DNA of 64,000 bases from Methylophilus sp. (lineage in GTDB: Bacteria > Pseudomonadota > Gammaproteobacteria > Burkholderiales > Methylophilaceae), in contig NZ_SSGF01000007.1 of assembly GCF_008015755.1 (NCBI RefSeq), positions 62,001 to 126,000 of the forward strand, written 5' to 3'. Under the pieces are notes generated by a model. That model was given only the letters and a program-made list of their open reading frames with translations. It did no database searches and was not told where the DNA came from. The position numbers were made by a program, and so were the translations under genes. Within the stretch, counting starts at the first letter, position 1. Every line of letters begins with the position of its first letter. Below are positions 42,491 to 57,613 of this stretch, piece after piece.

Positions 42491-43099
42491 TTATTTTAGA
42501 TTGCGAATCGCCATCCAGCCGAGATCGTGCATGCAGGCCACAAACGCGCGTTTGTAGGTTTGCGTTTTGTAATCCGGTAAATAGTCCGGTCCCAGTTTTT
42601 TCTCACAAGTGCCTTGATCCTGTTTGAGCTGATTCGGGAAGGCGCCCATTTTCCACCACGAGTTAATCGAATATTGCACATCCGGGCCATCGTTGGCAGT
42701 TGAGTGGCTGGCTGTCGTTGCCGCTTCTGCAACAGCAACTGGCACGGCTGGCTGCTTGGCCGACTCCACTGTTTGTGAGGCTGGTTGTGGTGTTTTCGCA
42801 ACAGCGGCGGCAACCGGTTTTTGCGGCGTCTCCGTCGATAACTCTATAAAAGGACTGGGCTTGGCCTGGCTGGCCTGTTTGTTATCCGTGACTTCTATGG
42901 TCGCGAATAAGGGGTCAAAGGCATCGACCGTGGGTTTTTGCCAGCCATGTTCAGCCAGACACTTGGTCAACTGGTCACCGCTGCCGCGGCAGGCCTGGTG
43001 CGCGCGGTCTATGTCTTGCTGCGAGCCGCCGCGCTTATAAGAAACCTCGCCGCAGCCTGCTAATACAGTGGTGAATAGGATGTAAGTTAAAAGACGCAT
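42491..43099 (-). CDS. Putative lipoprotein of unknown function
   Basis: 202 residues. Lipobox LAGC (Cys near residue 16) after a short signal sequence; then a domain with two cysteines (HQACRGSGDQLTKCLAEHGW), a low-complexity Ala/Pro/Gln/Thr linker (~75-130), and a second domain with CEKKLG and CMHDLGW, which echoes the first (each has paired cysteines and a xHGW or DLGW end). The two halves may be divergent copies of one small module. ATG 43099 is preferred for its AGGG site. Divergent from fmdC, sharing the region that holds the 43160 operator-like site. Confidence 0.65.
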   Translation of the reverse strand: MRLLTYILFTTVLAGCGEVSYKRGGSQQDIDRAHQACRGSGDQLTKCLAEHGWQKPTVDAFDPLFATIEVTDNKQASQAKPSPFIELSTETPQKPVAAAVAKTPQPASQTVESAKQPAVPVAVAEAATTASHSTANDGPDVQYSINSWWKMGAFPNQLKQDQGTCEKKLGPDYLPDYKTQTYKRAFVACMHDLGWMAIRNLK

Positions 43100-43159
43100 T
43101 GCGAGCCCTGTTCTCAATTTGTTATGTGCAGTCTAGCGGTGTTTACCCACCGTCGCCAC

Positions 43160-43175
43160 TACGCAAATTGACGTA
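43160..43175. promoter_or_regulatory. 7-2-7 inverted repeat operator upstream of fmdC
   Basis: TACGCAAATTGACGTA: half-sites TACGCAA and TGACGTA (complement TACGTCA) around AT. It lies 87 bp upstream of the fmdC ATG. The same architecture recurs at 57515-57530, and related sites at 48432-48447 and 46079-46087. A 7-2-7 inverted pair is the arrangement used by NarL/LuxR-type response regulators; such a regulator is encoded at 61033. Confidence 0.6.
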
Positions 43176-43261
43176 TTTGTCCTACATGCCCGGCTCGTTA
43201 AGCTGAGCGCAAGTTTTGATTAACTGTGTTGGTTTGAATTTAACGAGAAAGGGAGTTTTTG

Positions 43262-44437
43262 ATGATGAACTTGAAAAAATGTGCTTTGCATACAGCAGTA
43301 GCAATGGCTTGCGGCTTGGGTGCACAAATGGCAAATGCCGGTGCCACGATTACTTTTGGTGAAGACAAGTATATCAGTGCTGGCTTCGGTTTTATTGGAG
43401 GCTATTCATCAGTCGAGGATGCCGCTGCCAACGGCAAGGATCGTTCTAACGACTTTTCTTTAGACAGTGCGCGTATTTACTTGTCTGGCTCGTTCAACAA
43501 ATACATCAAGGGTATGTTGAACACAGAGAAAAACATTGCTGCACCAGGTGGCGGAAGCAGTGACACCATTCAAGTGATTGATGCCAACGTACAGTTCCAG
43601 TTAACACCAGAAGTGGCTATCTGGGCGGGGCGCTTTCTGTCCCCAAGTGATCGCGCCAACTTGGCCGGCCCTTACTACTCAATGGGTGGTGGCTACTGGA
43701 GCGGCATTGCTTCACGTTATGGCTTTAACGGTGGTGTGATTGGCCGTGATGAGGGTGTAGCGGTGGTGAGTAGCTTCCTGGAAGACCATCTGGCTGTGTC
43801 CTTCGGTGCGTTTGAAGGCGATAACATCTTCCGCTTGAGCGGTGTGGGTGCGCAATCAGAAACGGCAGGCACTAAAGACAAATTGATGTATGCAGGCCGT
43901 GTGCAATATAACTTCTGGGACGCAGAACCAGGCTATTACGGCACAGGTAGCTACTTTGGTGCCAAAGACATTCTGGCCATTGGTGTGGCTGGGCGTGTGA
44001 AAAAAGATGGTGTGGTGAGCGGCTTGGGCGCGGTGGGCGATTACAGCTCTTACAGCGTGGACTTCTTGTTAGAGAAAAAAGATGTCGGTCCTGGCACCTT
44101 CTCTACTGAAGCGGCTTACTACTACTACGACACTGACAACGCCATTTTGGGTGAACAAGGTAAAGCCTATTCAGCTGCTGTGGCCTATTTGTTCCAGGAC
44201 GAAATCGGCTGGGGCAAATTCAAGCCGTTTATCCGTTATCAAAAGTTTGACGCAGATGGTGTAACGACAGCGACCTCAAACGTGCGCACCGGTGCAGATA
44301 CCAAGCGTGTGGAAATTGGTACCAGCTACGTGATTGCGCCTTACAACGCCATGATTACTGCCAGCTACGGTAAGACTGACCTTTCAAACGCCTCTGATAC
44401 CAACGACTTCAAAGTCGCTTTGCAGATGCAGTTCTAA
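43262..44437 (+). CDS. fmdC: Outer-membrane porin of the amide/urea module (FmdC-like)
   Basis: 391 residues: signal peptide (cleavage after QMANA, residue ~22) and a beta-strand-rich barrel of alternating aromatic and glycine residues, ending in the outer-membrane signature QMQF with terminal Phe. In Methylophilus methylotrophus an amide-inducible porin, FmdC, precedes the formamidase gene; the same position and size here support the name. It would admit short-chain amides and urea at low concentration. GGGAG ribosome site; ATG 43262 or 43265. fmdA follows after 41 bp with no terminator. Confidence 0.8.
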   Translation: MMNLKKCALHTAVAMACGLGAQMANAGATITFGEDKYISAGFGFIGGYSSVEDAAANGKDRSNDFSLDSARIYLSGSFNKYIKGMLNTEKNIAAPGGGSSDTIQVIDANVQFQLTPEVAIWAGRFLSPSDRANLAGPYYSMGGGYWSGIASRYGFNGGVIGRDEGVAVVSSFLEDHLAVSFGAFEGDNIFRLSGVGAQSETAGTKDKLMYAGRVQYNFWDAEPGYYGTGSYFGAKDILAIGVAGRVKKDGVVSGLGAVGDYSSYSVDFLLEKKDVGPGTFSTEAAYYYYDTDNAILGEQGKAYSAAVAYLFQDEIGWGKFKPFIRYQKFDADGVTTATSNVRTGADTKRVEIGTSYVIAPYNAMITASYGKTDLSNASDTNDFKVALQMQF

Positions 44438-44478
44438 TCAACACCTTATAACCCTTTCTCACAAAGGAGATGAGCGTA

Positions 44479-45702
44479 ATGAAAACAATAGTGAAATTGG
44501 ATTTGGATAAAAAGCCCTGGGAGCAGGACGGTCAGATTCACAACCGTTGGCATCCTGACTTGCCGATGATTGCCATGGTCAAGCCAGGCGATGAGTTCCG
44601 CGTGGAATGTATGGACTGGACCGGTGGCCAGATTGGCAACAACGACAGCGCCAATGACATTCGTGACGTGGACCTGACCCAGGTGCACTACCTGAGTGGC
44701 CCGATTGGCGTCGAAGGCGCTGAACCGGGTGACCTGATGGTGGTGGAAATTTTGGATGTCGGCACCTTTGATGACCAGCAATGGGGCTTTAACGGCCTGT
44801 TTGCTAAAGAGAATGGCGGTGGTTTCCTGACTGACCATTTCCCTGAGGCCAGCAAATCCATCTGGGATTTTCACGGTGTCTACACCACCTCCCGCCATGT
44901 GCCAAAAGTCCGTTATGCCGGCATCATGCATCCGGGCTTGATTGGTTGTTTGCCCTCACGTGAGTTGCTGGAAAAATGGAACGAACGTGAAGCTGCGCTG
45001 ATTGCTACTGACCCTGACCGCGTACCAGCGCTGGCGCTGCCGCCTGAGCCTCAATCTGCCGTGATGGGTAAATTGAGCGGTGATGCAGCTAAAAAAGCAG
45101 CGATGGAGGGCGCACGTACCGTGCCACCTCGCGACCACGGTGGTAACTGTGACATTAAGAACCTGACCAAAGGCTCCAAGATTTTCTTCCCGGTCTACGT
45201 GAAGGATGGCGGTCTCTCCATGGGTGACCTGCACTTCTCGCAAGGCGATGGCGAAATCACCTTCTGTGGCGCGATTGAGATGGCGGGTTACCTCGACATC
45301 AAGGTCAGTCTGATTAAAGAAGGTGTGAAGAAATACGGCATTAAAAACCCAATCTTCCAGCCTAGCCCGATCACACCAACTTATCGCGATTATGTGATTT
45401 TTGAAGGTATCTCGGTGGATGAAGCAGGCAAACAGCACTATTTGGACGTGCATGTAGCGTACCGCCAGGCGTGTTTGAACGCGATTGAGTATCTGAAGAA
45501 ATTTGGTTACAGCGGCGAACAGGCGGTGTCTATCCTCGGCACTGCGCCGGTAGAAGGGCATATCAGCGGCATTGTTGATATCCCTAACGCCTGCGCCACC
45601 TTGTGGATCCCGACCGAAATCTTCGAGTTTGATATCCGGCCAAATGCGGATGGACCGAAGATCATGGTGCCACCGGGTGTAGATGTTTCCTTTACGTCAT
45701 AA
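44479..45702 (+). CDS. fmdA: Formamidase
   Basis: 407 residues of the acetamidase/formamidase family, hydrolysing formamide (and some short amides) to ammonia and the acid. The N-terminal LDLDKKPWEQDGQIHNRWHPDLP and MDWTGGQIGNNDSANDIRDVDLTQVHYLSGP, HPGLIGCLPS, PPRDHGGNCDIKNL and MGDLHFSQGDGEITFCGAIEM are the family blocks, including the conserved acidic and His residues. The start at 44479 has AAAGGAG 9 nt upstream; the ATG at 44470 abuts that site and is unlikely. The enzyme is cytosolic and supplies nitrogen. Confidence 0.96.
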   Translation: MKTIVKLDLDKKPWEQDGQIHNRWHPDLPMIAMVKPGDEFRVECMDWTGGQIGNNDSANDIRDVDLTQVHYLSGPIGVEGAEPGDLMVVEILDVGTFDDQQWGFNGLFAKENGGGFLTDHFPEASKSIWDFHGVYTTSRHVPKVRYAGIMHPGLIGCLPSRELLEKWNEREAALIATDPDRVPALALPPEPQSAVMGKLSGDAAKKAAMEGARTVPPRDHGGNCDIKNLTKGSKIFFPVYVKDGGLSMGDLHFSQGDGEITFCGAIEMAGYLDIKVSLIKEGVKKYGIKNPIFQPSPITPTYRDYVIFEGISVDEAGKQHYLDVHVAYRQACLNAIEYLKKFGYSGEQAVSILGTAPVEGHISGIVDIPNACATLWIPTEIFEFDIRPNADGPKIMVPPGVDVSFTS

Positions 45703-45713
45703 GGAGTGCGCAG

Positions 45714-46052
45714 ATGCCTTTATACGAATATGAGTGTGACAGTTGTGGCGTGTTTACCGCGCTACGCAAAATGAGTGATTCCAGTTTGCCTGCCGAGTGT
45801 GATTGCTGCGGTGCCATCAGCCCGCGCATCCTGTCGGTGCCCAAGCTGGCCATCATGGACAAGCATCAACGGTCCGCTCATGAACGTAACGAGAAGTCTG
45901 CGCATGAACCACGAAGCGCTCGCCGGTCTAGCTGTGGTTGCACAGGGTCTCATACCTGCAAAACCACCAGCAAAGTGAATGAAGACACCGGCAAGCTGCC
46001 GATGCAGATGCAAACCAAGAAAACAGCACGTCCCTGGATGGTCGGCCATTAA
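45714..46052 (+). CDS. fmdB: FmdB-family zinc-ribbon protein
   Basis: 112 residues. The N-terminal MPLYEYECDSCG and CDCCG form the small zinc ribbon that names the FmdB/CxxC-regulatory family. A Cys-containing middle (SSCGCTGSHTC) and a basic C-terminus follow. FmdB was proposed to regulate the formamidase genes in Methylophilus; direct DNA binding is not established for the family in general. It follows fmdA by 11 bp and is probably co-transcribed. Confidence 0.9.
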   Translation: MPLYEYECDSCGVFTALRKMSDSSLPAECDCCGAISPRILSVPKLAIMDKHQRSAHERNEKSAHEPRSARRSSCGCTGSHTCKTTSKVNEDTGKLPMQMQTKKTARPWMVGH

Positions 46053-46078
46053 TTCGCCTGCCACCAGTGAAGCAACAG

Positions 46079-46087
46079 ATTGACGTA
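46079..46087 (+). promoter_or_regulatory. Half-site of the amide/urea operator upstream of urtA
   Basis: ATTGACGTA, identical to the right half of the 43160 site, 42 bp before the urtA ATG. The left half-site is not conserved, but a second CGTA follows 4 bp later (TAATAATCGTA). This suggests a separate promoter for urtA inside the cluster. Confidence 0.45.
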
Positions 46088-46128
46088 ATAATCGTATTTA
46101 ATTGATTTATCCATAAAGGAGAGAAGTA

Positions 46129-47367
46129 ATGAGTACCTTGAACAGAAGGGGTTTTATCAAAGGCGCAATGTTAGGCGCGATGATGGCAGCAGGTCTCGTT
46201 ACCGGCCACGCGTTTGCTGCTGATTATCCAACGGCAAAAGTAAACACGACTGGTTTGGCAGTGACTGACACGACTGTTAAAGTTGGTATCCTGCACTCCG
46301 CCACCGGCACCATGGCGATTAGTGAAACGGGTTCTATCCAGGCTGAAAAACTGGCCATTGAGCAAATTAACGCCATGGGCGGCATTTTGGGTCGCAAGAT
46401 CGAAGTCGTGCAGGAAGATGGCGCGTCTGACTGGCCAACCTTTGCTGAAAAAGCAAAAAAACTGCTAGAAAAAGACAAAGTAGCTTCTGTGATGGGATGC
46501 TGGACCTCTGCCTCACGTAAGGCCGCTTTGCCAGTGTTTGAAAAAGACAATGGCTTGCTGTTCTACCCAACGTTCTACGAAGGTCTTGAGCAATCCAAAA
46601 ACGTATTCTATACCGGCCAGGAAGCCACTCAACAAATCCTGGCGGGCTTAGACTGGATCGCTAAAGAGAAAAAAGCCAAGACGTTCTACCTGATTGGTTC
46701 TGACTACATCTGGCCACGTACTTCCATGAAAATTGCCCGTAAACACATCGAGCAACATCTGGGCGGCAAAGTGGTGGGTGAAGAGTACATCGCTTTGGGC
46801 GACACACAATTTGGTTCTGTGATCAACAAAATCAAACTGAAAAAACCTGACGTGATCTACGCAGCGGTGGTGGGCGGCAGTAACGTGGCCTGGTTCAAAC
46901 AATTGAACGCGGCTGGTTTGAACTCTAGCAAACAAACCATGTTGACCATCTCTGTGACCGAAGACGAGGTATTGGGCATTGGCGGTGAAAACTTAGCCGG
47001 CTTCTACTCAGCCATGAAGTACTTCCAGTCTCAGGACAATGATTCAAACAAGAAATTTGTTGAAGCATTCAAAAAACGCTGGGGTAAAGATGCTGTGATC
47101 GGCGACGTGACACAAGCGGCTTACCTGGGCCCATGGTTGTACAAAGCGGCTGTTGAGCGCGCAGGCAGCTTCGACGTAGACAAAGTACAAGCGGCATTGC
47201 CTGGCTACGAGTTCAAAGACGCACCAGAAGGCCCAGTGACGGTTGAGGCTAACCATCACCTGACGACCAAACTGCGTATTGGTCAATGGGGTAAAGATGG
47301 CCAGGCCAAAGTGGTTTATACCTCTGGCTACATCAAACCAGATCCATTTCCAAAAGGCTATCAATAA
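46129..47367 (+). CDS. urtA: Urea/short-chain amide ABC transporter, substrate-binding protein
   Basis: 412 residues. A twin-arginine signal (NRRGFIKGAML, Arg6-Arg7; cleavage after HAFA near residue 30) implies Tat export to the periplasm. The mature protein is a type I binding protein of the Leu/Ile/Val-BP class with UrtA/AmiC features (VGILHSATGTMAISETGSIQAEKLAIEQINAMGGILGRK, GCWTSASRKA, PTFYEGLEQSKNVFYTGQ). It corresponds to fmdD of Methylophilus, reported to bind short-chain amides and urea. AAAGGAGAG ribosome site; a strong intercistronic hairpin follows. Confidence 0.94.
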   Translation: MSTLNRRGFIKGAMLGAMMAAGLVTGHAFAADYPTAKVNTTGLAVTDTTVKVGILHSATGTMAISETGSIQAEKLAIEQINAMGGILGRKIEVVQEDGASDWPTFAEKAKKLLEKDKVASVMGCWTSASRKAALPVFEKDNGLLFYPTFYEGLEQSKNVFYTGQEATQQILAGLDWIAKEKKAKTFYLIGSDYIWPRTSMKIARKHIEQHLGGKVVGEEYIALGDTQFGSVINKIKLKKPDVIYAAVVGGSNVAWFKQLNAAGLNSSKQTMLTISVTEDEVLGIGGENLAGFYSAMKYFQSQDNDSNKKFVEAFKKRWGKDAVIGDVTQAAYLGPWLYKAAVERAGSFDVDKVQAALPGYEFKDAPEGPVTVEANHHLTTKLRIGQWGKDGQAKVVYTSGYIKPDPFPKGYQ

Positions 47368-47392
47368 ATTAGTCCTGTCGTAAAAGCTTAAG

Positions 47393-47418
47393 CGGTAGCC
47401 GGTGTTTGCCGGCTGCCG
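47393..47418 (+). promoter_or_regulatory. Intercistronic hairpin between urtA and urtB
   Basis: 10-bp stem 47393-47402 with 47409-47418 (one G-U), loop TGTTTG, no T run. Hairpins here commonly protect the binding-protein message and lower permease expression, which would give the usual excess of binding protein. Confidence 0.65.
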
Positions 47419-47472
47419 TTTGGCGCAAGTAGTCAACATCTAATATAGAAATTGCATTTTAAGGAGACCGAT

Positions 47473-48390
47473 ATGTTTGGTTATTCGATGGCTGAGATAG
47501 GCAATATTGTGGTGATGCAGGGCTTTTCCGGCCTGAGCATGTTTACAGTGTTGCTACTGATGGCTCTGGGTCTCGCGATTATTTTCGGGCAGATGGGGGT
47601 GATTAACATGGCCCACGGTGAGTTTATGACCATCGGTGCCTACACCACGGTGCTGATTTCCAAAGTCGCCGCGACGTATGGGTTCACCAATTATTATTTT
47701 GTGTTTGCCATTGCGATTGCCTTTGTTCTGGCGTTCGCCGTTGGTTACTTTATTGAATTCATTATGATCCGGCACCTGTACAAGCGGCCGCTGGATACCT
47801 TGCTGGCGACCTGGGGCCTGAGCCTGGTCATGCAGCAAATCTTTCGCTCCAGCTTTGGTGCCAAAGAGGTGAGTGCCGAGCTGCCGGAATGGATGCTGGG
47901 CTCGTTCCAGCCAACACCAGACATTGATATCCCGATTAACGGCGTGTTTGTGATGGTGCTGGCGGCGCTAGTGACCTTTGGCGTTTATATGTTCATGTTC
48001 AAATCACGCTGGGGCCTGCGTGTGCGTGCCACCGTGCAAAACCGCACCATGGCTGGCGCGGTGGGGATTAACACTGCCAAGGTCGACCGTGTGACCTTTG
48101 CGCTGGGTTGTGGCATTGCCGGTATCGCCGGGGCGGCCTTCACCACCATTGCGTCTACCGGCCCGACTACCGGCACCTTGTATATCGTCGACAGCTTTAT
48201 GGTGGTGGTATTTGGCGGCGCAGCCAGCATCGTCGGCACCATTGCCTCGGCCTTCGGTATTGCCCAGGCGCAATCTGTATTGCAATTCTTTATGACCAGC
48301 TCGATGGGCAAGGTGTCTACTCTGCTCGTCATCGTCAGCATCCTGATGATGAAACCAGAGGGCTTGTTTGCCTCCAAACTGCGTAAATAA
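47473..48390 (+). CDS. urtB: Urea/amide ABC transporter permease UrtB
   Basis: 305 residues with about eight membrane helices, LivH type. GLAIIFGQMGVINMAHGEFMTIGAYT is the LivH/UrtB start, and RHLYKRPLDTLLATWGLSLVMQQ and the EAA-like region RVRATVQNRTMAGAVGINTAKVDRVTFALG follow. It corresponds to fmdE. The start at 47473 has AAGGAG 6 nt upstream; an upstream TTG frame extension would overlap that site. Co-transcribed with urtA through the hairpin. Confidence 0.93.
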   Translation: MFGYSMAEIGNIVVMQGFSGLSMFTVLLLMALGLAIIFGQMGVINMAHGEFMTIGAYTTVLISKVAATYGFTNYYFVFAIAIAFVLAFAVGYFIEFIMIRHLYKRPLDTLLATWGLSLVMQQIFRSSFGAKEVSAELPEWMLGSFQPTPDIDIPINGVFVMVLAALVTFGVYMFMFKSRWGLRVRATVQNRTMAGAVGINTAKVDRVTFALGCGIAGIAGAAFTTIASTGPTTGTLYIVDSFMVVVFGGAASIVGTIASAFGIAQAQSVLQFFMTSSMGKVSTLLVIVSILMMKPEGLFASKLRK

Positions 48391-48397
48391 CAGGGTT

Positions 48398-48430
48398 GGC
48401 GACTGATGAACATCTTTTTCATCCGTCGCC
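48398..48430 (+). promoter_or_regulatory. Intercistronic hairpin between urtB and urtC
   Basis: 13-nt arms 48398-48410 and 48418-48430 with one mismatch, loop CATCTTT. No T run follows, so it is more likely an RNA-stability or processing element, or a partial terminator ahead of an internal promoter. Confidence 0.6.
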
Positions 48431-48431
48431 A

Positions 48432-48447
48432 TAAGTAAATAGACGTA
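48432..48447 (+). promoter_or_regulatory. Operator-like site upstream of urtC
   Basis: TAAGTAAATAGACGTA matches the fmdC site in 13 of 16 positions, with the same orientation and 57 bp before the urtC start, just after a strong hairpin. It may drive a separate urtCDE transcript. Confidence 0.45.
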
Positions 48448-48503
48448 TTAATTGTTTACATCTGTCGCAATAGAATCAACGCATCAACAGAGGAGAAATC
48501 TTG

Positions 48504-49787
48504 ATGACATTATGGGAAAAAATGAAAGCCAGCCCAATATTGGGTGGTAAGGAAGGGGTGATCAGCCTGGCCGTTCTGGCTGCGATCATCTTCGTCGTAC
48601 TGCCGCTAAGTGTGGATATTTTCCGTCTCAACCTGATTGGCAAATACTTGACCTACGCCTTTGTCGCGGTGGGTCTGGTCATGTTGTGGGGCCATGGCGG
48701 TATCCTGAGTTTAGGCCAGGGTATCTTCTTCGGTCTCGGTGGTTACGCCATGGCCATGTTCCTCAAGCTCGAGGCTTCTGATCCACTCAGCACCAAAATT
48801 CAGTCTACCCCAGGTATTCCTGACTTTATGGACTGGAACCAGCTGACCGCCTTGCCCTGGTTCTGGGAGCCGTTCAAGAGCTTGCCATTTACCATCTTTG
48901 CCGTGCTAACGATTCCAGCCTTCTTTGCTTACCTCATTGGCTACGCCATGTTTAAGCGTCGGGTGGGTGGGGTATATTTCTCCATCATCACGCAAGCGGT
49001 TGCGTTAATTCTGAGTATTTTAATTGTGGGTCAGCAAGGCTACACCGGCGGTGTCAACGGCATGACCGATTTGCGTACTATGCTAGGCTGGGATATCCGC
49101 ACTGACTCTGCCAAATACATTCTCTACTTTGTAAACGGCCTGTTGTTATTTGGCGCGATTTTCTTGTCCAAATACATCATGAGCAGCAAGTTCGGCATGT
49201 TGTTGCTGGCCATGCGTGACAAAGAAGAGCGCGTGCGTTTTTCTGGCTACGACGTCTCCAATTTCAAAATCTTTATCTTCTGCCTGGCCGCCATGATGTC
49301 TGCGGTGGGTGGCGCCATGTTTACCCTGCAGGTGGGCTTTATGTCGCCTTCTTTTGTCGGCATTGTGCCTTCGATTGAAATGGTGATTTTCTGTGCCGTC
49401 GGTGGCCGCGCGTCACTGGTTGGTGCGGTGTATGGCACCTTGCTGGTCAATTACGGCAAAACCGTATTCTCCGAAACTTACCCTGAAATGTGGCTGTTCC
49501 TGATGGGCGGGCTGTTTATTGCAGTGGTGATGTTCTTCCCAAGTGGCCTGGCGGGTATCTGGGATAAATATGCGACCAAATACGGCTGGTTTAAAGACAA
49601 GGCTGAAGCAAAAAAGCCTGAGGTAAGTACTTCTGAGGTAGAAGCACCAGCAGTACTTACCGACACATCCCGTGAAACAATCACTGCCACTGAATCTACC
49701 GATGTGGCCAGCAAACAAGTCACGCGCAAGAAAGCGGATCAAGTATCTGCGATCGACAGTAGCAACATGAGAGGAGCAGAAGCATGA
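48504..49787 (+). CDS. urtC: Urea/amide ABC transporter permease UrtC, with C-terminal extension
   Basis: 427 residues, LivM type with about ten membrane helices (WGHGGILSLGQGIFFGLGGYAMAM; MRDKEERVRFSGYDVSNFKIFIFCLAAMMSAVGGAMFTLQVGFMSP; VGGRASLVGAVYGTLLVNYGKTVFSE). It corresponds to fmdF. After the last helix and WDKYATKYGWFKDK it carries a ~60-residue hydrophilic tail rich in Ser, Thr, Glu and Lys (AKKPEVSTSEVEAPAVL...), not needed for the permease fold. ATG 48504 has AGAGGAGA upstream. It overlaps urtD by 4 bp. Confidence 0.92.
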   Translation: MTLWEKMKASPILGGKEGVISLAVLAAIIFVVLPLSVDIFRLNLIGKYLTYAFVAVGLVMLWGHGGILSLGQGIFFGLGGYAMAMFLKLEASDPLSTKIQSTPGIPDFMDWNQLTALPWFWEPFKSLPFTIFAVLTIPAFFAYLIGYAMFKRRVGGVYFSIITQAVALILSILIVGQQGYTGGVNGMTDLRTMLGWDIRTDSAKYILYFVNGLLLFGAIFLSKYIMSSKFGMLLLAMRDKEERVRFSGYDVSNFKIFIFCLAAMMSAVGGAMFTLQVGFMSPSFVGIVPSIEMVIFCAVGGRASLVGAVYGTLLVNYGKTVFSETYPEMWLFLMGGLFIAVVMFFPSGLAGIWDKYATKYGWFKDKAEAKKPEVSTSEVEAPAVLTDTSRETITATESTDVASKQVTRKKADQVSAIDSSNMRGAEA

Positions 49788-50527
49788 GTAATACCGACTT
49801 CGTCTTAGCAGTAGAAGATTTGACCGTCTCCTTCGATGGCTTTAAAGCGGTGGATAGCCTCACCATGTATATCGATAAAAATGAGTTGCGTGTGCTGGTG
49901 GGGCCTAACGGCGCCGGTAAAACCACGGTGCTGGACCTGATCTGCGGTAAAACCAAATCAACCTCGGGTTCGATCAAGTTTAACAATACCGAATTGACCA
50001 AGCTGTCTGAGCACGAGATCGTTCGCTCGGGCGTTGGCCGCAAGTTTCAGAATCCGTCGATTTACGAAAACCTGTCGGTGTACCAAAACCTAGAAGTATC
50101 GTACCCGAAAGGCCGCGGCGTGTTTGGTAGCCTGACCTTCAAACGCACCAAAGAGGTCGAAGACCGTGTACGCAAGGTGGCTCAAGACATCATGCTGACT
50201 GAGTTTTTAGACATGGAATCTGCCTTGCTTAGCCACGGCCAGAAACAGTGGCTGGAAATCGGCATGTTGCTGATGCAAGAGCCTGAGTTATTGATGCTGG
50301 ATGAACCGGTGGCTGGCATGAGTGCGAAAGAACGCGATCAGACCGCTGAGTTGCTCAACCGCATTTGCCAGAACCGCTCAGTGATTGTGATTGAGCACGA
50401 CATGGAGTTTGTGAAGAAAATTGCGCACAAAGTCACCGTGTTGCACCAAGGCAAAATCCTGGCAGAAGGGCCGATGGAAAAAGTCCAGGCAGATGAAAAA
50501 GTGATTGAAGTCTATCTAGGCCACTAA
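49784..50527 (+). CDS. urtD: Urea/amide ABC transporter ATP-binding protein UrtD
   Basis: 247 residues, LivG type. Walker A GPNGAGKTT, Q-loop region GVGRKFQNPSIYENLSVYQNLE, signature LSHGQKQWLEIG, Walker B LLMLDEPVAGMS and the H-loop IEHDMEFV are intact. LSHGQ instead of LSGGQ is the usual UrtD variant. The start overlaps the urtC stop (ATGA). Confidence 0.95.
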   Translation: MSNTDFVLAVEDLTVSFDGFKAVDSLTMYIDKNELRVLVGPNGAGKTTVLDLICGKTKSTSGSIKFNNTELTKLSEHEIVRSGVGRKFQNPSIYENLSVYQNLEVSYPKGRGVFGSLTFKRTKEVEDRVRKVAQDIMLTEFLDMESALLSHGQKQWLEIGMLLMQEPELLMLDEPVAGMSAKERDQTAELLNRICQNRSVIVIEHDMEFVKKIAHKVTVLHQGKILAEGPMEKVQADEKVIEVYLGH

Positions 50528-50556
50528 CTGAAGCGCCATTACTTGAGGAGTATTGC

Positions 50557-51246
50557 ATGTTTGAAATTGAAAATTTGCAGGTGAGTTATGGCCAAAGTCA
50601 GGTGATTCATGGCCTGAACTTTAAAGCCAACAAAAACGAAACCCTGGCCATTATGGGCCGCAACGGCATGGGTAAAACCACTTTGTTTAAATCGCTAATG
50701 GGCATTTTGCCGAGCAAAGCGACCAAGGCGACAGTGGATGGTGTCGACTTGCAAGGCGCCGCCACGCATGACCGCGTGATGAAAGGCCTGGCCTATGTAC
50801 CCCAAGGGCGCTGGATTTTCCCGAATATGACGGTGCAGGAAAATATCGAAACCGGGCTGGAAAAGTCTGGCTCTGGCGAAATTCCTGAGGATATTTTTGC
50901 CTTGTTCCCGGTGTTGCATGAAATGCGCAAACGCAAGGGCGGCAACTTGTCCGGCGGTCAGCAACAGCAACTGGCCATCGCCCGTGCGCTGGTGACTAAC
51001 CCTAAAGTACTGTTGTTGGATGAACCAACTGAGGGCATCCAGCCATCGATTATTAAAGACATTGCCAAAGTCCTGAATGAAATCCGTAAGATGCGTGAAA
51101 TCACAATCATCGTGTCTGAGCAGGTGTTGAGCTTCACCATGGAAGTGGCCGACCGCATTATCGTTATTGATAAAGGCCGCTTTATTCATGAAGATACGCG
51201 CGACAATGTCGATGCCGCCAAGGTGAAAAGTTATCTGTCTGTTTAG
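50557..51246 (+). CDS. urtE: Urea/amide ABC transporter ATP-binding protein UrtE
   Basis: 229 residues, LivF type. Walker A GRNGMGKTT, LSGGQQQQLAIARAL, Walker B VLLLDEPTEGIQPS and the typical C-terminal SEQVLSFTMEVADRIIVIDKGRF. With UrtD it powers the transporter. A TTGAGGAG ribosome site lies ahead of the ATG. The 120 bp to ureD contain a palindromic repeat. Confidence 0.95.
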   Translation: MFEIENLQVSYGQSQVIHGLNFKANKNETLAIMGRNGMGKTTLFKSLMGILPSKATKATVDGVDLQGAATHDRVMKGLAYVPQGRWIFPNMTVQENIETGLEKSGSGEIPEDIFALFPVLHEMRKRKGGNLSGGQQQQLAIARALVTNPKVLLLDEPTEGIQPSIIKDIAKVLNEIRKMREITIIVSEQVLSFTMEVADRIIVIDKGRFIHEDTRDNVDAAKVKSYLSV

Positions 51247-51255
51247 GTGCTTTTT

Positions 51256-51325
51256 TAGCCACAGAGGGCACCGAGTTCACAGAGAAAAACGAATTTGTAG
51301 TTCCTCCGTGTCTTCTGTGGCTGAT
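51256..51325. repeat. Palindromic interspersed-type repeat before ureD
   Basis: AGCCACAGAGGGCACCGAG near 51256 is mirrored by CTCCGTGTCTTCTGTGGCT near 51305, forming a long imperfect hairpin. The wording GCCACAGAG...CACAGAG is familiar from dispersed non-coding repeats in several bacterial genomes; copies elsewhere in this genome cannot be checked from one window. Confidence 0.55.
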
Positions 51326-51369
51326 AGAAAAAGTGAATAATCAGGGTTTGTCTGTGGCATGATGCGGTG

Positions 51370-52236
51370 ATGGATGATTTGAAGCAAACGGCAATATTGC
51401 CAACGCAAACGAAAGCCGCCAAACACTGGCAAGCCAGACTGGAACTCGGCTTTTGCAAACGTGACGCGCGTTCTTATCTGGCACATCGTCTGCATAAAGG
51501 GCCGCTGGTGGTACAAAAATCACTGCATCCCGAAGGCGAGGCTGTGTGCCATGCGGTGATTGTGCATCCGCCGGGCGGTGTGGCAGGCGGCGACGCCTTG
51601 CAGCTTCAAGTCACGGTGGGCGAGGGCGCGCAAGCGTTGCTGACCACGCCAGGCGCCGGCAAGTGGTATAAAGCCAATGGCACGCTGGCTTCGCAGGATT
51701 TAAACTTCACCTTAGAGGCTGGTAGTGGCCTAGAGTGGTTGCCGCAAGAAAATATCTTGTTTGACGCCGCCGAGGTGCGGTTTACGGCAGACATTCGCCT
51801 GGCAACAGGTGCCACGCTGGCTGCCTGGGATATCGTCTGCCTGGGCCGACAGGCGCAGCAGGAGGCCTGGCAAACAGGTGTTTATCAGTTAAAACAGCAG
51901 ATTTGGCGTGAAGATCGCCTGATCTGGAATGAGCGCGCCCATCTGCGCGCAGCCGATGCGCTAGCGACGAGTAGCGTCGGCTTGGGCGGCGCGGTTGTCT
52001 TCGGCACCTTTTTAGTCTGTGCGGGCGCCGTGCCTGCTGACGTAGTGCAAGCTTGCCGCGCGCTGGTGCCAGCAGGCGCCAAGACCGGCATCACCGCATT
52101 GCCAGACGTGCTGGCGATACGCTATGTTGGCCATGCCTCGCAACAGGCCAGGCAATATTTCGAGCAATGCTGGCAGATTCTGCGGCCCTGGTATTATCAG
52201 CGTGACGCGGTCAGGCCACGCATCTGGAACACTTAA
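51370..52236 (+). CDS. ureD: Urease accessory protein UreD
   Basis: 288 residues. UreD binds apo-urease and forms the UreDFG activation complex that delivers nickel. Diagnostic blocks: RLELGFCKRDARSYLAHRLHKGPLVVQKSLHPEG, VHPPGGVAGGDALQLQVTVGEGAQALLTTPGAGKWYK and a C-terminal ALVPAGAKTGITALPDVLAIRYVG. ATG 51370, or GTG one codon earlier; no strong ribosome site. First gene of the urease operon, ahead of ureA by 27 bp. Confidence 0.94.
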   Translation: MDDLKQTAILPTQTKAAKHWQARLELGFCKRDARSYLAHRLHKGPLVVQKSLHPEGEAVCHAVIVHPPGGVAGGDALQLQVTVGEGAQALLTTPGAGKWYKANGTLASQDLNFTLEAGSGLEWLPQENILFDAAEVRFTADIRLATGATLAAWDIVCLGRQAQQEAWQTGVYQLKQQIWREDRLIWNERAHLRAADALATSSVGLGGAVVFGTFLVCAGAVPADVVQACRALVPAGAKTGITALPDVLAIRYVGHASQQARQYFEQCWQILRPWYYQRDAVRPRIWNT

Positions 52237-52263
52237 AATAAGAATACTTAAAGAGACTCAGCG

Positions 52264-52566
52264 ATGGAACTCACCCCTAGAGAAAAAGACAAGTTACTGA
52301 TCTTCACCGCCGCGCTGCTCGCCGAGCGGCGCAAGGCGCGTGGACTCAAACTCAATTATCCGGAAGCGATCGCGTTTATCACCGCGGCGATAATGGAAGG
52401 CGCGCGCGATGGCAATACGGTGGCCGAGCTGATGAGCTTCGGCACCACCTTATTGTCGCGCGATGACGTCATGGAAGGCGTGCCGGAAATGATCCCGGAT
52501 ATCCAGGTGGAAGCGACTTTCCCAGATGGCACGAAGCTGGTCACGGTGCACCACCCCATTCCATAG
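52264..52566 (+). CDS. ureA: Urease gamma subunit
   Basis: 100 residues, exact family length. [37 protein letters not shown] opens it and [24 protein letters not shown] closes it. It is the small structural subunit of the three-chain bacterial urease. It is unusual that 205 bp, containing a repeat-like element, separate it from ureB. Confidence 0.98.
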
Positions 52567-52574
52567 GTGTGAAT

Positions 52575-52771
52575 GATGAACATGGCAAATTGCGGCGTTG
52601 CGCGGTTTTTTAGTTACGGCATAACCTTAAGGTTAGCCTACACTGAAACTACGTTTTCGAAATCCTCATGTACTACATGTACATACCGGTTTCTGCGTTC
52701 CGTGCGCCTTGCACCTCATCCATTTTGATCATTCACTAATGCATCGATAAAAGTTCAATAGGCAAAAAAAC
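52575..52771. repeat. Repeat-like insertion between ureA and ureB
   Basis: The ureA-ureB gap is 205 bp, where a few bases are usual. It contains the palindrome GTACTACATGTAC near 52670-52682 and a stretch ending in GTTCCGTGCGCCTTGCACC near 52716, which reads like a dispersed intergenic element rather than a promoter. No ORF is supported. Confidence 0.45.
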
Positions 52772-53080
52772 ATGATTCCCGGCGAAATGCAGGTCGCAGC
52801 AGGCGACATCGAACTCAACACAGGGCGCGCAACGGTGACGCTGGATGTGGCTAATAAAGGTGACCGGCCGATTCAGGTCGGCTCGCATTACCATTTTTAT
52901 GAAACTAACGATGCTTTGGCGTTTGACCGGGCGCTGGCGTATGGCTGCCGCTTGAATATTGCCGCTGGTACGGCGGTACGTTTTGAGCCGGGGCAAACGC
53001 GCACGGTGCAATTGGTACAACTGGCCGGGGATCGAAACGTGTATGGCTTTGCCGGACGCGTGATGGGGGCTTTGAAATGA
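52772..53080 (+). CDS. ureB: Urease beta subunit
   Basis: 102 residues. [40 protein letters not shown] and [23 protein letters not shown] are the family blocks. It overlaps ureC by 4 bp (ATGA), so their translation is coupled. The ribosome site is weak, so its expression relative to ureA is hard to judge. Confidence 0.98.
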
Positions 53081-54780
53081 GCATCAAGATGGATAAACGC
53101 GCTTATGCCGAAATGTTCGGGCCAACGGTGGGCGACAAGGTGCGCTTGGCGGATACCGAGTTGTGGGTAGAGGTGGAAAAAGATTTTACCATCTATGGTG
53201 AAGAGGTCAAATTTGGCGGCGGCAAGGTCATTCGTGATGGCATGGGACAAGGCCAGGGCCTGGCGGCAGAAGTCGCCGATACCGTCATCACCAACGCCCT
53301 GATTATCGACCACTGGGGCATCGTCAAAGCCGATATTGGCATTAAGGGTGGCTATATTTCTGCCATTGGCAAAGCAGGCAACCCGGATATTCAGCCAGGC
53401 GTAACCATTGCGATTGGCGCGGGCACCGAGGTGATTGCCGGTGAGGGCATGATTATTACTGCTGGTGGTATCGATACGCATATCCACTTTATTTGCCCGC
53501 AGCAGATTGAAGAGGCGCTGATGTCTGGTGTGACCACTATGATAGGCGGCGGCACCGGGCCAGCCACGGGTACGTTTGCTACCACCTGTACGCCGGGGCC
53601 ATGGCATATCCACCGCATGTTGCAATCGGCGGATGCGTTCCCCATGAACCTGGGTTTTTTGGGCAAAGGGAATGCCAGCCTGCCAGAGCCTTTACGTGAG
53701 CAAGTCCGCGCAGGTGTGATCGGTCTCAAGCTGCACGAAGACTGGGGCACCACGCCAGCGGCCATTGATAATTGCCTGAGTGTGGCTGACGAGATGGATG
53801 TGCAGGTGGCCATTCACTCAGATACGCTGAATGAATCGGGTTTTGTAGAAACGACCATAGGCGCATTTAAAGGCCGCACCATCCATACTTTCCATACCGA
53901 AGGGGCGGGCGGCGGTCATGCGCCGGATATTATCAAGGCGGCCAGTCATCCGAATGTGTTGCCGTCGTCGACTAACCCGACGCGGCCATTTACGGTCAAC
54001 ACTATCGATGAGCATCTGGATATGCTGATGGTGTGCCATCACCTGGACCCGGCGATTGCCGAAGATATTGCGTTTGCCGAAAGCCGCATCCGCCGCGAAA
54101 CCATTGCCGCGGAGGATATTTTCCATGACCTTGGTGCGTTCTCCATGATGTCGTCCGACTCGCAAGCGATGGGCCGCGTGGGCGAGGTGATTATCCGCAC
54201 CTGGCAAACGGCGCACAAAATGAAGATACAGCGCGGGCCATTGGCAGAAGACGCGCCGGGCAATGATAACTTCCGTATCAAACGCTATATCGCCAAATAC
54301 ACCATTAACCCGGCCATTACGCACGGCGTTTCACACGTGGTGGGTTCGGTTGAGGTCGGCAAATTGGCTGATCTGGTGGTGTGGAAACCCGCCTTCTTTG
54401 GCGTGAAGCCATTTACCATCATCAAAGGCGGCATGATTGCGGCGGCAGCGATGGGCGATCCGAATGCGTCTATCCCAACCCCGCAGCCCGTGCATTACCG
54501 CCCGATGTTTGGCGCGTATGGCGGTGGCTTAAAAACTGCAGTGACCTTTATCTCACAAGCCGGGCTAGATAATCCGGAAGTACATGCATTAGGTCTGCAA
54601 AAGCCACTGGTCGCGGTCAAAGGCACGCGCGATGTCAAAAAGTCAGACATGGTGCACAATACCTGGATGCCCAAGATTGAGGTCGACCCCGAAACCTATG
54701 AAGTACTCGCTGATGGCATGCCTTTAGTCTGTGAACCAGCCGAAGTATTGCCGATGGCGCAGCGCTACTTTTTGTTTTAA
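53077..54780 (+). CDS. ureC: Urease alpha (catalytic) subunit
   Basis: 567 residues, full length. All active-site residues are present, each one position later than in Klebsiella urease: nickel ligands His135 and His137 (DTHIHF), carbamylated Lys218 (GLKLHEDWG), flap Cys320 and catalytic His321 (VCHH), and the nickel ligand Asp361 (SSDSQAMGR). It hydrolyses urea to ammonia and carbamate in the cytoplasm. The downstream 123 bp hold another palindromic element before ureE. Confidence 0.99.
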
Positions 54781-54789
54781 CGATTGATT

Positions 54790-54893
54790 GACCGCCGATA
54801 AACGCAGATACACGCCGATAGAGCGATTCAGGTGAAATATGTATTTGTTTTTATCCGCGTTCATGGGCGTGCATCTGCGGCCAAATAAAATAA
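54790..54893. repeat. Palindromic repeat between ureC and ureE
   Basis: CCGCCGATAAACGCAGATACACG (54791 on) is mirrored by ATCCGCGTTCATGGGCGTGCATCTGCGG (ending near 54882), giving an imperfect inverted pair with a ~30-nt spacer. Such CGCAGAT/ATCTGCG repeats are typical dispersed non-coding elements. This is the third repeat-like insert in the urtE-ureE stretch. Confidence 0.55.
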
Positions 54894-54903
54894 GAGTTTT
54901 AAC

Positions 54904-55386
54904 ATGATTCATTTAACCGAACGTATTGCCGTGAGTGGCCAGATTGATGACACTCTGGAGCTGCCATTTGATCAACGGCAGAAAAGCCGTTTGCGCGTGA
55001 AGCTGGCCTCCGGTCGTGAAGCGGCCTTGTTTTTAACGCGCGGCATTATTCTGCGTGGTGGTGATTTGCTTAAATCTGAAGAGGGTATGGTGGTGCAGAT
55101 TGTTGCCGCCCAAGAGCCTGTGTATAACGTCATTGCACCGACCCCGCGCGAGCTCATGTGTGCGGCTTATCATTTGGGTAACCGGCATGTCCCGCTGCAA
55201 ATTGGCGATGGCTGGCTCCGGCTGGAGCAAGATTATGTGTTGAGAGATATGCTGCTTGGACTAGGTATGCAAGTCAGTGAAGTGCATGCCCCGTTTGAGC
55301 CAGAAGCTGGCGCTTACGGTGGTGGCCATCGGCATGGTGATGAGGCCCCGCATTCACTGAAACCGCGAGGGCACGGTCATGGCTGA
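54904..55386 (+). CDS. ureE: Urease accessory protein UreE
   Basis: 160 residues. A nickel metallochaperone with an N-terminal peptide-binding domain (QRQKSRLRVKLASGREAALFLTRG) and the central metal-binding domain (YHLGNRHVPLQI with its conserved His), followed by a His-rich C-terminal tail (GGGHRHGDE...GHGHG) that binds extra nickel. It overlaps ureF by 8 bp. Confidence 0.97.
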   Translation: MIHLTERIAVSGQIDDTLELPFDQRQKSRLRVKLASGREAALFLTRGIILRGGDLLKSEEGMVVQIVAAQEPVYNVIAPTPRELMCAAYHLGNRHVPLQIGDGWLRLEQDYVLRDMLLGLGMQVSEVHAPFEPEAGAYGGGHRHGDEAPHSLKPRGHGHG

Positions 55387-56062
55387 TGCGCTGGCACTTA
55401 GCCGTTTATTACAACTGGCCAGCCCATTGTTGCCGGTGGGGGCTTATTGTTACTCGCAGGGCCTAGAGTGGGCCATTGAGTCTGGTGAGGTCAAAGACGT
55501 TGCGACCGCGCAGGCCTGGATAGGAGATAGCTTGCAGGTGTATCAGGCGCGGTTTGAGTTGCCGCTTTTATATCGCTTGTATCAGGCTTGGCAGGCAAAC
55601 GATATGCAACAGGTGCAGGCCTGGGACCACTTTTACCAGGCCGGGCGCGACACCGCCGAAGGCTGGGCCGAGACGCGGCAGATGGGTTATTCTTTGCGGC
55701 GCTTGTTGAATGACTTAAAGCCGATGTCTCCCGCACTGATTGCGCAGGTCAACAGGCTGGAAACGCCCGCTTTTCCGACCTTATATGCGGCGATTGCCCA
55801 GCACTGGCAGATTGCGCCCGAACAGATGCTGCATGGTTATGCCTGGGGTTGGCTGGAGAATCAGGCCAGTGCCGCCATGAAAGCCGTGCCGCTTGGCCAG
55901 GTCGCCGGGCAGACCATTTTGTTCGCTCTGGGGTCGCAATTGCCCCAGGTGATACAGGCAGCAATGCAGTTGCCTGACGATGAAATGAGTAATTTTAACC
56001 CCTTGCTCAGCATCGCGGGCTGCCAACACGAAACACAATACAGCAGGTTATTTAGATCATGA
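55379..56062 (+). CDS. ureF: Urease accessory protein UreF
   Basis: 227 residues. UreF bridges UreD and UreG in the activation complex. [50 protein letters not shown] and the all-helical remainder ([25 protein letters not shown]) match the family. It overlaps ureE at the start and ureG at the end, so ureEFG are translationally coupled. Confidence 0.97.
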
Positions 56063-56712
56063 AAATACATACCCAGTTTGACACCCCTACGCCTAATGTT
56101 ACTGACTACAAAGAGCCCTTGCGCGTAGGCATTGGTGGCCCGGTGGGCTCAGGCAAGACCGCACTGACATTGGCTTTGTGCCAGCGCCTGCGCGAGGTGT
56201 ATAACATCGCCGTGGTAACTAACGATATTTACACCAAGGAAGATGCCGAGTTTTTAACCCGCAATCAAGCGCTGACCCCTGAGCGCATTATTGGCGTGGA
56301 AACCGGCGGCTGCCCGCATACCGCCATTCGCGAGGATGCTTCCATGAATCTCGAAGCTGTTGATCAGCTGAGTAAACGATTTCAAACGCTGGATATCGTG
56401 TTTGTGGAAAGTGGTGGCGACAACCTGGCGGCGACCTTTAGCCCCGAGTTGTCTGATTTGACGATTTATGTGATTGACGTGGCTGCCGGGGAAAAAATTC
56501 CGCGCAAAGGCGGACCCGGCATCACCAAATCTGACTTGCTGGTGATTAACAAGATAGACCTTGCGCCGATGGTAGGTGCCTCGCTGGAAGTGATGGATCA
56601 GGATGCCAAACGCATGCGTGGCGACAAGCCATTTGTGTTCAGCAACCTCAAAAGCGGGCAGGGCCTGGAAGACATTGTCAGGTTTATTGAGAAACAAGGT
56701 CTCATGCTTTGA
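56059..56712 (+). CDS. ureG: Urease accessory GTPase UreG
   Basis: 217 residues. A SIMIBI-class GTPase that drives nickel insertion: P-loop [24 protein letters not shown], the nickel-binding CPH motif in [28 protein letters not shown] and NKIDLAP. It starts inside the end of ureF (4-bp overlap). Last accessory gene before ureJ. Confidence 0.98.
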
Positions 56713-56856
56713 TCATTGGCACTGCGGGTGCGTGGCGGTGTTGTATCGGCTTGCCACAAATGCACATTGCCAATGTTGGCCGTTAAATCAATATAGAAAA
56801 TTTGGTGTGTGAACGACTTCACTCATCTTGAATGCAATTCGTTTGGAGAAGATTGA

Positions 56857-57420
56857 ATGAAAAAAAATATTCTAGTCGGTATTGCTGGGCTCGTCGCATC
56901 CACCAGCGCGCTGGCCCATCCAGGTCACGGCCTGGCGTCTGGCTTTGCAGCAGGCTTTTTGCACCCACTCACAGGGTGGGATCACTTGTTGGTGATGTTA
57001 TCACTCGGTGTCTGGGCCGCGCGGCGTCCAAAGGGGCAGGGTTGGCAGCTGCCTGTCATGTTTGTGGTGGCGATGGCAGTTGCCGCTTTTACCGCAATGA
57101 CCTGGTTGTCAGCTTCAATGGCTGAGGTATTAGTCGCGGCAAGCGTATTGCTGATGGGCGGTTTGTTGTTGGCTGATGTCGCTATATCGCGCGGTATCCA
57201 GCTTGCTGGTGTGGCGGTGATCGCCGCCGCCCATGGTTATTTGCATGGTATAGAGTTAGGTAGCCATTGGGTTGCACTGGCAGGCATGCTACTGGCTACT
57301 GCGCTTTTACATGCTTTAGGTTGGTGGTTGGGGCGTCAGCCACAGTTATGGGCGCGCTCTGCATCCAGACTACTAGGTGGGCTGATGCTGGTATTTGGCG
57401 CTAGCTTGCTCTGGGTTTAA
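56857..57420 (+). CDS. ureJ: HupE/UreJ family nickel permease
   Basis: 187 residues: signal-like N-terminus ending ALAHPGHG and about six membrane helices. HPLTGWDHLLVM carries the family motif HPxxGxDH, which together with HGYLHGIE is thought to bind nickel or cobalt during import. It follows ureG by 144 bp with its own ribosome site (TGGAG), and a strong terminator closes the urease operon after it. Confidence 0.92.
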   Translation: MKKNILVGIAGLVASTSALAHPGHGLASGFAAGFLHPLTGWDHLLVMLSLGVWAARRPKGQGWQLPVMFVVAMAVAAFTAMTWLSASMAEVLVAASVLLMGGLLLADVAISRGIQLAGVAVIAAAHGYLHGIELGSHWVALAGMLLATALLHALGWWLGRQPQLWARSASRLLGGLMLVFGASLLWV

Positions 57421-57456
57421 ATGACTCCTGCGGCCGCGCCAGGCCGTGGCAAACGT

Positions 57457-57490
57457 AAAATGCGGATAAGTTTGTTATCCGCATTTTTTA
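57457..57490 (+). terminator. Intrinsic terminator of the urease operon
   Basis: Perfect 13-bp stem 57457-57469 with 57475-57487, loop GTTTG, ending in a T run. It isolates the following sensor kinase gene as a separate transcription unit. Confidence 0.92.
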
Positions 57491-57514
57491 TTTGTGGCAT
57501 GCTTACAGCTGCAT

Positions 57515-57530
57515 TACGTCAATTAACGTA
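57515..57530. promoter_or_regulatory. 7-2-7 inverted repeat operator upstream of the permease-kinase gene
   Basis: TACGTCAATTAACGTA: half-sites TACGTCA and TAACGTA around AT. Its reverse complement matches the fmdC site at 14 of 16 positions. It lies 84 bp before the kinase start, so the sensor-regulator pair may regulate itself. Confidence 0.6.
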
Positions 57531-57613
57531 GTGATTGATGTTATCACCTGCTCTAGTATAGCTTGGGGCGCATATTTCTCTACTGACGGTCCCGTCTTTT
57601 TAAGGATTGTTGA

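Follow-up and report, generated by a model that had tools for sequence, protein, structure and literature searches.

Two described systems come closest to the one considered here. In Escherichia coli, the response regulator NarL recognizes inverted heptamers 2 bp apart, an arrangement referred to as 7-2-7, and the site at napF is placed around -40 to -49 (PMC4549865). CrbS/CrbR (MxtR/ErdR) couples a transporter-fold hybrid kinase to a LuxR-type regulator, and the ACTU motif of CrbR, an inverted repeat of imperfect symmetry that spans -52 to -36 immediately ahead of the RpoD promoter, is described as required for activation (PMC5715377). As for the genes involved, the fmdCABDEF cluster of Methylophilus methylotrophus is induced by formamide and urea and repressed by high ammonia, and one of its products is termed a putative positive regulator, according to a review (PMC10781810). 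Here we consider the corresponding cluster in a strain of the same genus, contained in a window of 64,000 nucleotides (G000:C16:62001-126000) of the 2.75-Mb genome of Methylophilus sp., where 16-bp inverted repeats precede fmdC and the gene of a hybrid sensor kinase. These sites are very probably activator operators of the response regulator encoded at 61033, as part of a two-component system in which a transporter-like receptor would sense amides and urea. Topic and operator-sequence searches of the open-licence literature retrieved no paper on this system or on these operator sequences; the term 'two-component' is absent from the review, whose passage on the cluster mentions no operator (PMC10781810).

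As in the sites of NarL, the predicted operators upstream of fmdC (43160-43175; TACGCAA-AT-TGACGTA, TACGCAAATTGACGTA) and of the kinase gene (57515-57530; TACGTCA-AT-TAACGTA, TACGTCAATTAACGTA, or TACGTTAATTGACGTA on the other strand) consist of two inverted heptamers separated by 2 bp, with TAC...GTA at the outer ends, and the regulator carries a LuxR/GerE domain (all features lie on the forward strand unless noted). The consensus of the NarL heptamer is TACYYMT. In the present case 63 distinct sites, selected for TACG-N8-CGTA and therefore informative only in their inner bases, gave TACGYMA-N2-TKRCGTA, with A at inner base 7 in 0.93 of the symmetrised profile, unlike NarL, and with G at base 4, which follows from site selection and is found in both window sites. 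The recognition helix differs from that of NarL, and the sensor is not a nitrate receptor. The heptamer also departs from the TACCCCT of an engineered NarL site shown in PMC4549865. Unlike CrbS, which has an SLC5 symporter and a STAC domain, the sensor has a predicted NCS1 fold and a Cys-rich linker; the ACTU examples given for CrbR are 17 bp long, of other sequence (such as TACTACCATCGTCGAAT) and upstream of acs/actP (PMC5715377), whereas the sites examined here are 16 bp long, and the regulon of CrbR comprises acetate genes where ours comprises amide and urea genes. The system combines a hybrid kinase of transporter fold, a type already described, with an operator of NarL layout, and it differs from either precedent in its (predicted) transporter fold, its heptamer and its regulon.

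A sequence-only reading of the window had proposed both operators, which agree at 14 of 16 positions once oriented alike, and had noted their 7-2-7 layout; letters, coordinates and layout proved correct. So did a variant upstream of urtC (48432-48447, TAAGTAAATAGACGTA), matching the fmdC site at 13 of 16 positions. A half-site upstream of urtA (ATTGACGTA, 46079-46087) is present as described but, of 36 regions upstream of urtA, only that of the window contains it; we rejected it as a conserved element, and it is probably a chance occurrence. The window contains two copies of TACG-N8-CGTA where 0.30 would be expected, and since 5 of 100 shuffles also reach two, the significance of the window taken alone is weak; when up to three mismatches are allowed, the 16-mer occurs 8 times against 1.35 expected, a number reached in none of 100 shuffles (two palindromes being counted on both strands). 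Throughout the 2.75-Mb genome, TACGNNAATTNACGTA matches exactly only at the fmdC and kinase sites, in line with the rarity that the reading required, and the same is true of the operator followed after 23 nt by a -10-like TANNNT. When two mismatches were allowed, both patterns were rarer than their reversed controls (14 + 14 matches against 69 + 71 for the pattern with the box), so degenerate matches are uninformative alone. What places the sites beyond chance is their conservation in relatives.

The kinase is encoded in 49 of 150 Methylophilaceae genomes (E <= 1e-100). Stretches around the other 48 were retrieved and their genes mapped by tblastn; these loci were picked by kinase and not by motif, and counts refer to those in which 220 nt of upstream DNA were present. 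TACG-N8-CGTA was found within this distance upstream of fmdC in 28 of 28 loci, of the kinase gene in 32 of 48 and of fmdA in 9 of 33, the last in genomes with a wide fmdC-fmdA gap wherever fmdC was present in the stretch, while dinucleotide shuffles of the upstream regions gave a mean count of at most 0.1. Within the same 220 nt, no family locus had the pattern upstream of urtA (0/36), ureD (0/41), ureA (0/41), hupE (0/44) or the regulator gene (0/47), and upstream of urtC it was seen in 1 of 39, as a match within urtB and without a -10 box. Conservation in orthologous promoters was thus observed for the fmdC and kinase sites and not for the urtA half-site; that of the urtC variant is confined to Methylophilus, where TA[AC]G-N8-CGTA occurs in 11 loci including the window, each with TANNNT at +23. 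A form that begins with TAAG, as the urtC site does, and that has its -10 box at +23 was also found before fmdC in locus L235 and before urtA in L246 and L248, which makes the urtC site a plausible weak operator. Twenty further family pieces were partly selected for the known operator and give no independent count; fmdC carries the exact site in 19 of them. In L235 (genome G121), for which formamidase was the sole selection criterion, fmdC is preceded by the TAAG form and fmdA by the exact site. That the four matches arose by chance in AT-rich intergenic DNA, as the shuffles of the window and the lack of conservation at urtA might suggest, is hardly credible in view of the conservation and fixed spacing in relatives, which refute it for the fmdC and kinase sites; it stands for the urtA half-site.

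The strongest single result, independent of how the sites were selected, is the fixed spacing to the -10 box. In the window, -10-like hexamers begin 23 nt past the fmdC operator (TAAGCT, 43199-43204), the kinase operator (TAGTAT, 57554-57559) and the urtC variant (TAGAAT, 48471-48476). TANNNT at exactly +23 was found at 28 of 28 fmdC sites, 31 of 32 kinase sites (the remaining one at +22), 9 of 9 fmdA sites and 11 of 12 urtC sites, the twelfth being the match inside urtB. Overall, 74 of 76 distinct flanks have it at this position, and any other offset from 0 to 30 has at most 5, except +28 with 24; the boxes read TAATCT, TAAGCT, TAGTAT and similar. With a 17-nt spacer, the -35 hexamer falls immediately downstream of the operator, where a poor one is found (TTTGTC, GTGATT; at fmdC TTTGTC, 43176-43181) that begins with TTT in 26 of 28 fmdC promoters. 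A generic sigma-70 scan had neither the fmdC nor the kinase promoter among its predictions, which accords with the poor -35. With the -10-like box exactly 23 nt downstream, the site borders directly on the -35 region, a position typical of activator sites. Relative to the presumed start of transcription it would span about -51 to -36, much like the CrbR motif at -52 to -36, and its place next to the -35 region, at a fixed distance from the -10 box, gives the promoter a class-II-type activator layout.

This geometry bears on the sign of the effect, where activation is what we infer. NarL represses frdA, one of whose sites is of the 7-2-7 type (PMC4549865), and the present sites could in the same way be repressor operators, or the regulator could repress its own operon. 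We consider this unlikely, given that the fixed position just upstream of a poor -35 in those 74 flanks is the geometry of an activator, that the CrbR site at -52 to -36 is described as required for activation (PMC5715377), and that the cluster is reported as inducible (PMC10781810). An open reading frame that looks lipoprotein-like by eye (42491-43117, reverse strand) lies divergent from fmdC, and several relatives have a reverse-strand -10 box at +23 of the fmdC operator, which in the window is at +24 (TAGACT); the operator between this frame and fmdC may belong to a two-way promoter.

The same arrangement extends outside the family. In the order, the kinase was detected (E <= 1e-150) in 65 of 399 genomes, and 58 of these 65 lie outside Methylophilaceae; 60 loci were retrieved, leaving out the kinase match of G309. 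TACG-N8-CGTA was present near the kinase, urtA or fmdC in 30 of the 60, in some as perfect palindromes (TACGTCAATTGACGTA), and in 23 of these 30 TANNNT followed at +23 or +24, 8 of them having TAATCT on the urtA-facing side. One-mismatch forms precede fmdC in L162 and L193, with a -10 at +23. Five more short pieces were chosen to reach upstream of urtA (L246-L250): fmdC is preceded by the exact site in L246 and L247, where the -10 follows at +24; urtA is preceded by the TAAG form in L248 and, in L249 and L250, by sites with exact outer and unusual inner bases, that of L249 having no -10. From a scan of named genomes covering at least 560 relatives, the best 80 were kept, of which 13 have the downstream fmdC or urtA start in the stretch; 12 of these 13 carry the exact site, all 12 with TANNNT at +23. 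At least L312 and L331 repeat genomes counted earlier, and Massilia/Duganella-type loci, with the urtA start outside the stretch or not seen, are not part of this count. Six records titled Methylophaga or Gammaproteobacteria (L283, L286, L288, L295, L296 and L299) hold the same kinase at 59-61% identity, which suggests transfer between methylotrophs; the first three have the exact site upstream of the kinase, without TANNNT at +23.

The regulator proposed to bind these sites (61033-61965) combines a receiver (PF00072, 1.2e-26) with a C-terminal GerE DNA-binding domain (PF00196, 1.6e-17), as LuxR/NarL-type regulators do, and its gene overlaps the kinase gene by 4 nt. Its pairing with the sites, inferred earlier from the window, gains support from the way in which they track the kinase/regulator pair and from the joint variation of recognition helix and half-site. 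Within the family, TACGYMANNTKRCGTA is found in 48 of 49 genomes with the kinase and in 8 of 101 without it (Fisher 1.3e-29); the eight include the fragmented assembly G133, in which fmdC is preceded by the operator (L230). Formamidase occurs in 44 of the 150 family genomes, and without the kinase solely in two fragmented assemblies, G121 and G133. Across the order, the strict operator with its -10 box was found in 25 of 65 genomes with the kinase against 8 of 334 without (Fisher 1.2e-15), and outside the family in 18 of 58 against 8 of 328 (7.7e-11). UrtA (E <= 1e-120) is encoded in 53 order genomes, 41 with and 12 without the kinase; strict sites were present in 13 of the 41 and in none of the 12 (p = 0.026). 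TACG-N8-CGTA with a -10 box was likewise absent near urtA in all 12 kinase-less genomes, which include G305, G369 and G528, with UrtA 83-85% identical to that of the window, and G165, with UrtA 78% identical. As for the helix, unreadable in the regulators of L158, L184, L209 and L215, site-bearing loci mostly have SPRT[VI]NKH[LM]EH and half-sites TACGTCA or TACGCAA, while all four loci with SPRTVDKH[LMI]ER (L183, L190, L192, L196) have TACGTGA together with TACGTAG or TACGTAC.

Several observations weigh against this assignment or narrow it. Sixteen of the 48 family kinase promoters have no exact operator (five g7 loci; the six g11 loci, in one of which the kinase gene is broken; L086; L096; and three g18 loci, which carry the one-mismatch form TACGTCATTTGACGCA), so autoregulation is not universal. 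In 30 of the 60 order loci the retrieved stretch contains no exact operator at a promoter, some likely targets lying outside it, 7 of the 30 order loci with a site have no -10 at +23 or +24, and L320, a named locus with the urtA start included, has no site. The reversed control is also commoner in genomes with the kinase, both in the family (24/49 against 20/101) and in the order (15/65 against 40/334; manual counts), and this mild enrichment indicates that genome size and composition explain part of a contrast that is far larger for the real pattern; the Fisher values moreover overstate certainty, because related genomes are not independent. In the UrtA comparison, 8 of the 12 kinase-less genomes hold only UrtA at 57-60% identity, which makes it a looser control. 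The four SPRTVDKH[LMI]ER loci carry one genus label (f29 g52), under which other loci, such as L170-L172, combine an N-type helix with TACGTCA sites, and the joint difference may for this reason be one evolutionary event. A fifth D-type helix, SYRTVDKHLQH in L073, pairs with TACGCTA/TACGCAA, and five SPAT[VA]KKH regulators have no site in their stretches, a loss that is not clean since one of the genomes, that of L177, carries a site of TACGCCA type at a distance of about 9.7 kb from the start of the kinase gene.

The genome also encodes 12 GerE domains, and this, together with the 8 kinase-less order genomes that have operator and -10 box, would fit a genuine operator that has only been inherited along with the cluster and that serves a different regulator, of LuxR type or otherwise. 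Such an explanation appears improbable: the site precedes the kinase-regulator pair even on a separate contig (in G036 the kinase is on C34 and fmdC on C27), it accompanies the kinase in genomes where no formamidase was found (G001, G004, G008), it is missing near urtA in the 12 UrtA-bearing genomes devoid of the kinase, and helix and half-site vary jointly in the four related loci. Tandem TACG-N8-CGTA sites were seen in two kinase-less genomes (G172:C16:11620-11689 and G299:C512:7519-7588), in G172 with TAATCT at +23, and perhaps belong to a related regulator.

The sensor (57614-61036) has 1140 amino acids and consists of a predicted NCS1-transporter-fold domain, a Cys-rich linker and a HisKA-HATPase-receiver hybrid kinase. 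No Pfam family matched its first 543 residues, and usable matches for this part were also absent from sequence searches of NCBIfam and the PDB. An AlphaFold model of the domain, built from 30 relatives (pLDDT 75, pTM 0.79), had Mhp1 and CodB, both NCS1 members, as best fold matches, with target-normalised template-modelling (TM) scores of 0.68-0.74, root-mean-square deviations of 5-6 and identities of 15-19% to 2jln, 4d1a, 2x79 and 7qoa; L147 (21% identity, badly aligned and probably misframed) was left out of the sensor alignment. The domain is thus predicted, by structure modelling and without sequence-profile support, to adopt the NCS1 fold. The kinase was also considered as an SLC5-type CrbS, but SLC5 members ranked below those of NCS1 in the fold search. 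The linker, at residues of about 510-547, joins this domain to the kinase, has invariant cysteines (CVICEREYE...CPAYGGAICSLCCCLDARC) and resembles a metal-binding module. The ligands of NCS1 proteins, which transport or bind nucleobases, hydantoins or ureides, include rings with ureide and amide groups, a range that would suit a receptor for amides or urea, the presumed ligands.

The genes that the system would serve follow the order fmdC, fmdA, fmdB, urtA-E, ureD-A-B-C-E-F-G, a hupE-like gene, sensor kinase and regulator. FmdC (43259-44437), the presumed outer-membrane porin for amides and urea, is named from gene order and the literature, its sole family match being the porin ExtI, under the cut-off of that model. 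Formamidase, encoded by fmdA (44470-45702), matched NF045496 over the cut-off, and the urea ABC transporter binding protein, encoded by urtA (46129-47367), did so with TIGR03407; the permease genes urtB (47452-48390) and urtC (48501-49787), the ABC ATPase genes urtD and urtE (49784-51246) and the urease genes ureD, ureA, ureB, ureC, ureE, ureF and ureG (51367-56712) come next. The gene between these and the kinase, which had no match in the NCBIfam scan, we take to be hupE-like. A terminator-like hairpin (57457-57487), found by consensus scan only, lies between the upstream genes and the kinase promoter, and another hairpin, at 48391-48432 between urtB and urtC, has stem letters that by eye seem to covary among Methylophilus loci.

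The product of fmdB (45714-46052), a zinc-ribbon protein, corresponds by gene order to the putative positive regulator that the review names in the M. methylotrophus cluster (PMC10781810). FmdB might on these grounds be the positive regulator of the cluster, the two-component system doing something else, and its zinc ribbon would agree with such a function. This seems very unlikely: Pfam and NCBIfam show just the zinc ribbon and a below-cut-off RPWMISH domain, with no helix-turn-helix, and tblastn found no fmdB in the stretches L090, L093, L216 and L217, whose fmdC is preceded by the operator (for L093 in L233).

Further occurrences of the sites were noted away from the cluster. In genus g11, an extra operator with its -10 box lies at G010:C3:479566 (L107), G030:C1:679698 (L253), G053:C1:1288687 and G043:C11:176360; in L107 and L253 the gene downstream encodes an MFS-like transporter (CynX-like by eye), possibly a further member of the regulon. 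Sites of TACGTCATAT[CA/CG]-type with TAATAT at +23 were seen at G022:C1:985457 (L251, 1787-1802), in G096:C24, in G059:C6 and in G095:C20, that of L251 being at the start of a gene judged MOSC-like by eye.

In the mechanism that we propose, the NCS1-fold domain of the membrane kinase would detect urea or short-chain amides, or their passage, and the kinase would phosphorylate the LuxR/NarL-type regulator. A dimer of the latter would then bind the two inverted heptamers beside the poor -35 hexamer and recruit RNA polymerase to the fmdC promoter, whose transcripts are presumed to reach formamidase and transporter genes beyond the porin gene, and to the promoter of its own kinase-regulator pair. 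Such a system would explain the induction of the cluster, and leaves its repression by ammonia unexplained.

Taken more broadly, the system probably represents a two-component family widespread in beta- and partly in gammaproteobacteria, in which an NCS1-fold hybrid kinase would act as amide/urea receptor and a LuxR-type regulator would act through a single 7-2-7 operator, with a distinctive heptamer and a fixed place 23 nt before the -10 box, to drive the porin and transporter genes and, often, its own kinase-regulator pair. It supplies a candidate sensor, regulator, operator and promoter for the known induction by formamide and urea, in a culturable genus and in named relatives. If this holds, NCS1 would be the second transporter fold among transporter-fused kinases, and the motif could be used to predict urea and amide regulons.

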